Source: Betaproteobacteria bacterium RIFCSPLOWO2_02_FULL_67_26
Lineage (GTDB): Bacteria; Pseudomonadota; Gammaproteobacteria; Burkholderiales; SG8-41
Assembly (NCBI GenBank): GCA_001771935.1
Contig: MERD01000008.1
Span: 14,387 to 48,838 of the forward strand
Reading direction: 5' to 3'
DNA length: 34,452 nt
The position numbers were made by a program, and so were the translations under genes. A model generated the notes under the pieces. That model was not told where the DNA came from and made no database searches. It was given only the letters and a program-made list of their open reading frames with translations. Positions 6,669 to 9,214 of this stretch are shown one piece after another. Positions within the stretch are counted from its first letter, which is position 1. Each line of letters starts with the position of its first letter.

Positions 6669-7318
6669 TTTCATTCAGCCAGGTCACCAAGCGCTATGCC
6701 GGAGGGCTGGAGGCGTTGCGCGGCATCACGCTCACGATCGAGAACGGCGAAATGGTATTCATCACCGGCCACTCCGGAGCCGGCAAGAGCACGCTGCTCA
6801 AGATCGCGGCGGCGATCGAGCGCCCCTCCAGCGGCAGCGTGATCGTCAATGGACAGAACATCGCGGCGCTGCGGCCACGCGCGGTGCCTTTCCTGCGCCG
6901 TAAATTCGGCCTCGTGTTCCAGGACCAGAAGCTGCTCTTCGACCGCACCGCGTTCGACAATGTGATGCTGCCGCTCGCGATCACCGGCTTCGAGCGGCGC
7001 GAGGCGGCGCGCCGCGTGCGGGCGGCGCTGGACAAGGTCGGCCTGCTCGCCAAGGAACAGTCCTTTCCGGTGACCCTTTCCGGCGGCGAGCAGCAGCGGC
7101 TCGCGATCGCGCGCGCCATCGTGCACCGCCCCGCCATCCTGGTCGCCGACGAGCCGACCGGCAACCTCGATACGGCCCATGCCTTGGAGCTGGGCGAGCT
7201 GTTCCGGTCCTTCAACCAGGTCGGCGTCACCGTGATCATCGCCACCCACGACGAAGCGTTCGCGGCGCGGTTGAAGCCGCGCCTCGTCCTGCTCAGGGAA
7301 GGAAAACTGGCCGCATGA
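6665..7318 (+). CDS. ftsE: Cell division ATP-binding protein FtsE
   Basis: FtsE is the ABC ATPase that works with FtsX at the septum, controlling periplasmic murein hydrolase activation and divisome function. The 217-residue protein has Walker A GHSGAGKST (35-43), a Q-loop at VFQDQKLL, the signature LSGGEQQRLAIARA, Walker B ILVADEPTGNLD, and the switch histidine in IIATHDEAF. Length is typical. It is coupled at both ends: ATG overlaps the ftsY TGA (ATGA 6665-6668) and its own stop overlaps the ftsX start (7315-7318). Confidence 0.97.
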   Translation: MISFSQVTKRYAGGLEALRGITLTIENGEMVFITGHSGAGKSTLLKIAAAIERPSSGSVIVNGQNIAALRPRAVPFLRRKFGLVFQDQKLLFDRTAFDNVMLPLAITGFERREAARRVRAALDKVGLLAKEQSFPVTLSGGEQQRLAIARAIVHRPAILVADEPTGNLDTAHALELGELFRSFNQVGVTVIIATHDEAFAARLKPRLVLLREGKLAA

Positions 7319-8247
7319 GAGCGTGGCTATGGCATCACCTCGATGCCTTGCGCATGACGGCCGCGCGGTTCGCGCGAACGCCGGTGGCGACGCTCCTCAA
7401 CGTCGGGGTCATCGGCATCGCACTGGCGCTGCCGACCGGGCTCTACGTCGCGCTCGTCAACCTGCAGGGTTTCGCGCACTCGCTCGTATCCGACCCGCAG
7501 CTCTCGGTGTTCCTTGCGCTCGACGCCAGCCGTGCCGAGGCGGGCCGGATCGGGGCCCGCCTGCGGCAGCATCCGGGGGTGCGCGAGGCGCGCTACGTCC
7601 CGCGTGACCAGGCGTTGAAGGAACTCAAGGCGAGCACCGGCCTCGCCGACGTGGTGGAGAGCCTGCCCCAGAACCCGCTGCCGGACGCATTTGTCGTGCT
7701 GCCGCGGGACGCTCAGCCGCAGGCGCTCGAGGCACTGCGCGACGAAGTGAGCCGCTGGCCCAAGGTCACTCACGTGCAGCTCGACGCGGCGTGGGCGCGG
7801 CGCCTGGAGGCGGGATTGCGGCTGGCCCGGCTGGCCGCGGGGCTGCTGGCAACCTTGTTTGCCTTCGCGCTGGTGGCGGTGACCTTCAACACCATCCGCC
7901 TGCAGATCCTGACCCGCCGCGAGGAAATCGAGGTGTCGAAGCTGATCGGCGCGACCGATCCCTTCATCCGCCGGCCCTTTCTTTACTACGGCGCGCTCCA
8001 GGGCCTGGCCGGTGGTGTCGCGGCCTGGGCCATCGTCTGGGCCGGAGTGAAGCTCCTGAACGGGGCCTTGTCCGAGCTCACCCAACTCTACGCGACGCGC
8101 ATCGAGCTGCAGCACCTGGGTCCCGAGGACAGCCTGAGCCTGCTCGCGTTTTCGGCCGGGCTCGGCTGGTTCGGGTCGTGGCTTTCGGTCAGCCAGCATC
8201 TGGCCCGGATCGAGCTCGGACGGGAGCTGCCCAACCCCCTGATTTGA
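7315..8247 (+). CDS. ftsX: Cell division protein FtsX (permease subunit)
   Basis: FtsX is the membrane partner of FtsE. The 310-residue sequence shows the expected four membrane segments: about 24-44 (LLNVGVIGIALALPTGLYVA), 170-195 (AAGLLATLFAFALVAV), 220-245 (YYGALQGLAGGVAAWAIVW) and near the C-terminus (LSLLAFSAGLGWFGSWL). A large extracytoplasmic loop containing SVFLALDASRAEAG lies between segments 1 and 2. The segment NTIRLQILTRREEIEVSKLIGAT is the conserved cytoplasmic region after TM2. The order ftsY-ftsE-ftsX-rpoH is the same as in E. coli. Confidence 0.96.
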   Translation: MRAWLWHHLDALRMTAARFARTPVATLLNVGVIGIALALPTGLYVALVNLQGFAHSLVSDPQLSVFLALDASRAEAGRIGARLRQHPGVREARYVPRDQALKELKASTGLADVVESLPQNPLPDAFVVLPRDAQPQALEALRDEVSRWPKVTHVQLDAAWARRLEAGLRLARLAAGLLATLFAFALVAVTFNTIRLQILTRREEIEVSKLIGATDPFIRRPFLYYGALQGLAGGVAAWAIVWAGVKLLNGALSELTQLYATRIELQHLGPEDSLSLLAFSAGLGWFGSWLSVSQHLARIELGRELPNPLI

Positions 8248-8308
8248 GGCTGATTTTGGCCCTGGAATCGCGCCTTAACACCCTGAATCAAAGGAACTTT
8301 ACCGGGTT

Positions 8309-8335
8309 CTGGCACTCCTACATTGAGAGTGCTAG
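8309..8335. promoter_or_regulatory. CIRCE-like HrcA operator upstream of rpoH
   Basis: The inverted repeat CTGGCACTC (8309-8317), a 9-base spacer (8318-8326) and GAGTGCTAG (8327-8335) match the CIRCE consensus TTAGCACTC-N9-GAGTGCTAA. The left arm matches at 7 of 9 and the right arm at 8 of 9 positions, and the spacer is exactly 9. It spans the -35 to -10 region of the presumed rpoH promoter, so a bound HrcA repressor would block polymerase. The motif is seen directly; regulation by HrcA is inferred. Confidence 0.75.
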
Positions 8336-8338
8336 AAT
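8310..8338 (+). promoter_or_regulatory. Probable rpoH promoter overlapping the CIRCE-like element
   Basis: The -10 hexamer TAGAAT (8333-8338) lies 17 bp from a weak -35-like TGGCAC (8310-8315). A start site near 8345 would leave a leader of only about 15 bases before the rpoH ATG (8360), with Shine-Dalgarno GAGG at 8351-8354. Confidence 0.5.
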
Positions 8339-8359
8339 GTTTCTCTAAATGAGGCGCCT

Positions 8360-9214
8360 ATGACCAGTCTTGCTTTGCCAGTCCTATCGGCTACCGGCAG
8401 CCTGGAATCGTATATCCAGTCCGTCAACCGCTTCCCGATCCTGACCCAGGAGCGGGAGAGGGCGCTGGCCCGTCGCTACGCCCGCGAGGGTGACCTCGAT
8501 GCGGCACGGGAGCTCGTGGTGTCCCACCTGCGGGTCGTGGTCGCGATCGCCCGCGGCTACCTGGGCTATGGGCTGCCACAGGCCGATCTCATCCAGGAGG
8601 GCAACATCGGGCTGATGAAGGCCGTCAAGCGCTTCGATCCCGAGCGCGGCGTGCGGCTGGTGTCGTTCGCGGTGCACTGGATACGCGCCGAGATCCATGA
8701 ATACGTTCTGCGCAACTGGCGGATGGTGAAGATCGCGACCACCAAGGCGCAGCGCAAGCTGTTCTTCAACCTGAGGAGCCTCAAGCAGAGCCTCGCGAGC
8801 CTCGGGACCGAGGACGTCAAGGCAATCGCCAGGCAACTCGGCGTCAAGCCCGAGGAAGTGGTCGAGATGGAAACGCGGCTCGGCGGCAAGGACATCGCGC
8901 TCGAGCCGGCGGGCGAGGACGACGATGAGGGCTACGCCCCGATCGCCTACCTCGCGGCCGAGGACGCGGAACCCGGGCGCATCCTGGAGCACGAGGAAAC
9001 CGCGCGGCTGCGGAGCCGCGGCCTGGAGCAGGCGCTGGCCGGTCTGGACGCCCGCAGCCGGCGCATCATCGAGGCGCGCTGGCTCGCCGAGAAGGAAGCC
9101 GCGACCTTGCACGATCTCGCCGCGGAATTCGGCGTGTCCGCCGAGCGCATCCGCCAGATCGAGGCGAAAGCCCTTGCGAAGATGAAAGGTGTCGTCGCCC
9201 GGCACGCGGCGTAA
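8360..9214 (+). CDS. rpoH: RNA polymerase sigma-32 (heat-shock sigma factor)
   Basis: RpoH directs RNA polymerase to heat-shock genes. The 284-residue protein has region 1.2/2.1 (SYIQSVNRFPILTQERERAL), region 2.2-2.4 (DLIQEGNIGLMKAVKRFDP and VSFAVHWIRAEIHEYVLRNW), and the RpoH-specific box QRKLFFNLR after region 2.4. It also has region 3 (DVKAIARQLGVKPEEVVEME) and a C-terminal helix-turn-helix 4.2 (TLHDLAAEFGVSAERIRQIE). The start ATG 8360 has GAGG 5 bases upstream. A CIRCE-like operator overlaps its promoter, so HrcA-linked control is likely. Two hairpins follow the stop. It is the downstream neighbour of ftsX, but with its own promoter. Confidence 0.97.
   Translation: MTSLALPVLSATGSLESYIQSVNRFPILTQERERALARRYAREGDLDAARELVVSHLRVVVAIARGYLGYGLPQADLIQEGNIGLMKAVKRFDPERGVRLVSFAVHWIRAEIHEYVLRNWRMVKIATTKAQRKLFFNLRSLKQSLASLGTEDVKAIARQLGVKPEEVVEMETRLGGKDIALEPAGEDDDEGYAPIAYLAAEDAEPGRILEHEETARLRSRGLEQALAGLDARSRRIIEARWLAEKEAATLHDLAAEFGVSAERIRQIEAKALAKMKGVVARHAA

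Follow-up and report, generated by a model that had tools for sequence, protein, structure and literature searches.

The textbook account of sigma-32 control rests on E. coli, a bacterium that lacks HrcA. The rpoH gene described here raises the question of whether the repressor HrcA controls its transcription directly, as a sequence-only reading of the locus had proposed. We analyzed this gene in its genomic stretch of 34,452 nucleotides (the window), in the rest of the genome, and in related genomes. The features of the locus that carry the argument are as follows.

7315 to 8247, forward strand: ftsX, the upstream neighbor of rpoH; the order ftsE-ftsX-rpoH is conserved, as in E. coli.
8309 to 8335, forward strand: CIRCE element (putative HrcA operator), CTGGCACTC-CTACATTGA-GAGTGCTAG, 24 nt before the rpoH ATG.
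8309 to 8317, forward strand: CIRCE left arm CTGGCACTC; its first six bases, CTGGCA, form the sigma-70 -35 element, and its closing TC opens the sigma-E -10 element.
8327 to 8335, forward strand: CIRCE right arm GAGTGCTAG; its TGCTA gives the extended TG and the first bases of the sigma-70 -10 element.
8351 to 8354, forward strand: Shine-Dalgarno GAGG of rpoH, as seen in the sequence.
8360 to 9214, forward strand: rpoH, encoding sigma-32 of 284 aa (TIGR02392, 403 bits against a cut-off of 323).

The CIRCE consensus is TTAGCACTC-N9-GAGTGCTAA, with a 9-nt spacer and few mismatches allowed. The sequence-only reading had pointed to CIRCE-like arms with exactly 9 bases between them, and our analysis bears this out. 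The rpoH arms are separated by exactly 9 bases, match 15 of the 18 consensus positions, and are complementary in 8 of their 9 pairs. Scanning the window with the consensus at three mismatches or fewer, we obtained one match, where shuffling gave an expectation of 0.01. The whole genome (3.46 Mb) holds only two symmetric CIRCEs, one before rpoH and the other, TTAGCACTC-N9-GAGTGCCAA, about 54 nt 5′ of groES. Four further 3-mismatch matches in the genome are lopsided, and at such a loose setting the total is no commoner than that of a reversed control pattern. The rpoH element departs from the consensus at three positions (C at 1, G at 3, and G at 27), and these bases are the natural variants seen most often in relatives.

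A repressor for this operator is encoded in the same genome. The sequence-only reading had named a missing hrcA gene as a point that would speak against it, and we found hrcA on another contig as a 347-aa open frame (PF01628, 233 bits, 4e-69). The winged-helix DNA-binding domain of HrcA scored 20.8 bits, just below its cut-off of 21. The neighbors of hrcA, named by eye, are presumably hemH-like and nadK-like genes.

Loss of the dyad in relatives was the other point raised against HrcA control. We assembled 110 rpoH loci, one from the window genome, 29 from relatives, and 80 from named public records; the majority are Betaproteobacteria. At a threshold of at least 14 of 18 positions, 108 of the 110 loci carry a CIRCE upstream of rpoH, so the dyad is kept in relatives. 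Laboratory betaproteobacteria such as Cupriavidus necator or Aromatoleum are among the carriers (L056, L066, and L069). The information content reaches 1.0 to 2.0 bits across the CIRCE arms, and most columns on either side are close to zero. In most of 41 relatives, the genome contains exactly two CIRCEs, and hardly any match is obtained with the reversed control pattern. The two exceptions at rpoH are Nitrosovibrio (L047) and Nitrosospira (L072), both of which encode hrcA.

The suggestion that such control might be known in some betaproteobacteria proved too narrow, since the feature reaches further. In a gammaproteobacterial sample of about one genome per family plus eight, we took 420 nt before rpoH, required at least 15 of 18 positions, and looked for hrcA in each genome as well. 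Among the genomes that encode hrcA, 87 of 94 have a CIRCE before rpoH, versus 6 of 42 without it (Fisher p about 1e-19, kinship being ignored). The outliers are thus seven hrcA-bearing genomes without a scored rpoH CIRCE and six genomes with the CIRCE but no hrcA; some of these mismatches may be assembly gaps or recent losses. In five genomes where hrcA was not found (G131, G163, G139, G059, and G170), the rpoH CIRCE matches at 17 to 18 of 18 positions. These are either assembly gaps, cases of very recent hrcA loss, or signs of another CIRCE-binding protein. One hrcA-bearing gammaproteobacterium (L278) carries CTGGCGCTC-N8-GAGTGCTAA about 93 nt 5′ of rpoH, with an 8-nt instead of a 9-nt spacer and an intact sigma-E motif. 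Among 20 alphaproteobacteria (L249 to L268), none has a CIRCE at rpoH, though 16 carry hrcA. Thus, having hrcA does not generally entail HrcA control of rpoH. On these comparative grounds, the CIRCE at rpoH is a general, HrcA-linked feature, kept with the repressor and mostly lost without it.

The operator coincides with a sigma-70 promoter, the only sigma-70-like one within 8050 to 8400.

8309 to 8314, forward strand: sigma-70 -35 element CTGGCA, a 4/6 match, with a spacing of 18 to the -10 element.
8333 to 8338, forward strand: sigma-70 -10 hexamer TAGAAT, with the TG extension one base before it.
8344 to 8346, forward strand: probable sigma-70 transcription start, placed from the -10 position, giving a leader of about 15 nt to the ATG at 8360.

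The hexamer TAGAAT is present as the sequence-only reading had it, although the right arm does not simply touch it but overlaps it by three bases. The estimated leader of about 15 bases agrees with a start near 8345. Relatives mainly have TTAGCA or TTGGCA as the -35 element at rpoH and TAAAAT, TAATAT, TAAACT, or TAGAAT as the -10 element. The TGnTA of the extended -10 element is contained in the CIRCE right arm GAGTGCTA. The final T of the -10 element, CIRCE position +29, falls outside the CIRCE; it occurs at rpoH in 97% of the betaproteobacteria and 88% of the gammaproteobacteria versus 3 of 35 groES CIRCE sites. A sigma-54 reading of TGGCAC was ruled out by eye, as GC is absent at the -12 spacing. 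No terminator was found between ftsX and rpoH, and transcriptional read-through into rpoH from ftsEX is possible.

A second promoter, of the sigma-E type, overlaps the same operator.

8293 to 8299, forward strand: sigma-E (RpoE/ECF02) -35 element GGAACTT, 16 bases upstream of the CIRCE and absent at groE CIRCE sites.
8316 to 8320, forward strand: sigma-E -10 element TCCTA (TCnnA), 16 nt after the -35 element, its TC common to the CIRCE left arm.
8325 to 8328, forward strand: probable sigma-E transcription start, placed from the -10 position, giving a leader of about 33 nt.

We defined a sigma-E promoter as GGAACTT, 15 to 17 nt, and TCnnA, and the rpoH site shows this pattern with 16 nt. The genome also encodes RpoE (323 bits, above the cut-off) and its anti-sigma factor RseA, with rseA directly after rpoE. 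Because the CIRCE left arm ends in the TC of the sigma-E -10 element, selection on that element can be seen only in the A at CIRCE position +11. In the betaproteobacteria, this A is present in 72 of 77 loci with an in-register GAAC versus 8 of 30 without it (p 8e-12). The independent gammaproteobacterial sample gave 55 of 60 versus 14 of 33 (p 4e-7). Of the CIRCE sites at groES in these same genomes (n = 35), none has GAAC and one has the A at +11. In-register GAAC is missing in about 28% of the betaproteobacteria and 36% of the CIRCE-bearing gammaproteobacteria, and roughly a quarter of the betaproteobacteria have no sigma-E motif at this position. The Nitrosovibrio and Nitrosospira loci, about 63 nt 5′ of rpoH, have lost the CIRCE right arm but still have the GGAACTT and TCnnA motif along with hrcA, which makes them natural mutants for the model. 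The SigE protein of Bordetella bronchiseptica transcribes the rpoH homologue fam in vitro (PMC3490749). Thus, a sigma-E promoter appears to overlap the CIRCE, and rpoH is predicted to respond to envelope stress while HrcA acts as its gate. The earlier claim that HrcA repression governs rpoH is strongly supported by the presence of hrcA, the conservation of the dyad, and their co-occurrence, yet the conserved sigma-E promoter would add an input, so control is predicted not to be by HrcA alone.

We weighed three other explanations of the locus. The dyad could be a chance or non-HrcA palindrome, and its three departures from the consensus might be taken in that sense. However, 0.01 such matches are expected per window, the dyad is kept in nearly all relatives, it tracks hrcA, and the departures are common natural variants; we consider this explanation to have practically no chance of being right. 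The rpoH site also combines the consensus and spacer, hrcA in the genome, a heat-shock core-promoter position, and conservation, which are among the features that mark a CIRCE. The dyad is, so far as sequence comparison can tell, a genuine CIRCE, far beyond chance. A different possibility is that HrcA gates the sigma-70 promoter only, GGAACTT being incidental or the site of another factor, with no role for sigma-E. The loci that lack an in-register GAAC would fit it, as would the wider conservation of the sigma-70 elements, namely the T at +29. It is nevertheless unlikely, because both independent samples show the -35 element varying together with the distant A of TCnnA at the sigma-E spacing of 16 to 17, neither sigma-E signature is found at groE CIRCE sites, and Bordetella SigE transcribes rpoH in vitro (PMC3490749).

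The sequence-only reading had also argued that almost no leader is left for an RNA thermometer. Most of the E. coli rpoH thermometer lies within the coding region. Leader length alone is therefore not decisive, and the short leader by itself excludes no thermometer of that kind. Leader thermometers of the ROSE or fourU type would not fit into 15 nt. Folding at 30 and 42 °C was applied to the window mRNA and, separately, to rpoH of E. coli, each against 60 synonymous shuffles, and gave no thermometer sign in the window. For E. coli, the positive control, start-codon pairing and heat opening were extreme (3% and 2% of shuffles). In the window mRNA, both were ordinary in this in silico folding, with 20% of shuffles as paired and 12% opening as much, unlike the E. 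coli type. An Rfam search matched no RNA thermometer family and returned sub-threshold irrelevant matches only. Within the limits of such folding, these results back the view taken in the sequence-only reading more soundly than leader length does. Hence, an E. coli-like mRNA thermometer as the main control of rpoH, with the CIRCE minor, is very improbable, although a coding-sequence thermometer is compatible with a short leader and the N-terminal coding sequence (SLAL) resembles that of E. coli.

Longer leaders occur elsewhere in the sample. Eleven Oxalobacteraceae-/Burkholderiaceae-type loci (L093, L096, L097, L102, L103, L106, L110, L111, and L113 to L115) have the CIRCE at rpoH and lack the sigma-E motif. 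Their CIRCE lies 105 to 205 nt from the aligned start; given N-terminal extensions, the true starts may be 30 to 55 nt earlier. Extra leader-level control could exist at these loci. When the long leaders of the Oxalobacteraceae type were folded against column shuffles, z was large, but the shuffling destroys alignment structure and the predicted pairs sit mainly in the coding sequence, so we draw no conclusion from this value.

We are therefore highly confident that rpoH lies under a genuine HrcA operator overlying two overlapping promoters, one for sigma-E and one for sigma-70, with HrcA predicted to exclude both holoenzymes. In the unstressed cell, HrcA, held active by free GroEL, would occupy the CIRCE. 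From there it would extend over the entire sigma-70 core promoter and the -10 element of the sigma-E promoter, shutting out RNA polymerase carrying either of the two sigma factors. Both promoters would open once GroEL is tied up by unfolded protein or HrcA is inactivated by heat, and envelope stress would reach rpoH via sigma-E. The sigma-32 so made would drive groESL, which has a CIRCE of its own. Many relatives have a groES promoter that looks sigma-32-like (CTTGAAA ... CCCTAT) just 5′ of the CIRCE, so HrcA may repress groE also through rpoH. The result would be a coherent feed-forward loop with HrcA at its head, repressing groE directly and through sigma-32, and GroEL feedback would close the loop. 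The HrcA proteins of Bacillus subtilis, Chlamydia, and Helicobacter bind more strongly with GroEL, which unfolded protein draws off; in Helicobacter pylori, HrcA binds across core promoters and does so better in the presence of GroE (PMC6032397).

Should HrcA gate rpoH in all gammaproteobacteria that keep hrcA, the two heat-shock systems would form a hierarchy in which GroEL availability sets sigma-32 synthesis at the DNA level. The 46-bp stretch from 8293 to 8338 would integrate envelope stress through sigma-E, growth through sigma-70, and cytoplasmic folding through HrcA. Against this background, the E. coli mode of rpoH control looks like the exception. Tentatively, and with somewhat less than even confidence, we suggest that the nested CIRCE/sigma-E/sigma-70 promoter is the ancestral rpoH control of the Gammaproteobacteria, betaproteobacteria included. 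The E. coli type would then be derived, its P3 promoter a relic after hrcA loss, followed by translational thermometry and chaperone control of sigma-32. This would fit the presence of the composite promoter across hrcA-bearing gamma- and betaproteobacteria and the sigma-E motifs retained without a CIRCE, both in E. coli P3 and in 12 of the 43 genomes of the gammaproteobacterial sample that lack the rpoH CIRCE. Since the alphaproteobacterial absence and a case in Geobacter allow more than one placement of the root, the ancestral reading is offered as a hypothesis.

Among the papers we searched, none examines HrcA control of rpoH by experiment in beta- or gammaproteobacteria, and none describes a CIRCE overlapping a sigma-E promoter. 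Permina and Gelfand (2003) reportedly covered the same regulons and clades and may already include rpoH among the predicted CIRCE targets, possibly those of betaproteobacteria. The operator is a member of the known CIRCE family; the nested three-way arrangement and its breadth were found nowhere described, and priority is uncertain. In Geobacter sulfurreducens, a CIRCE was predicted from sequence at rpoH, position -51 (Rodionov et al. 2004, PMC545781). That case concerns a deltaproteobacterium and a single genome, and the available part of the paper does not describe an overlapping sigma-E promoter (PMC545781). The fam gene of B. bronchiseptica has a sigma-E-like promoter immediately upstream, as here; a role for HrcA is not mentioned in the available part of that study (PMC3490749). 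In E. coli, rpoH P3 reads GAACTT-N16-TCTGA, with a spacing equal to that of the window sigma-E promoter, whereas the CIRCE is absent (best 10/18) and so is hrcA, for which a search of the E. coli control genome found nothing. The closest parallel within the genome is the groESL CIRCE of the B. subtilis type, represented here by the groES site, which shares with the rpoH site the 9-9-9 inverted repeat, the same repressor gene, and a heat-shock target. The rpoH site differs from it in the A at +11, the T at +29, and the upstream GGAACTT. The groES CIRCE lies just downstream of its own promoter elements, whereas the rpoH CIRCE contains the -35 and -10 elements of one promoter and the -10 element of another.
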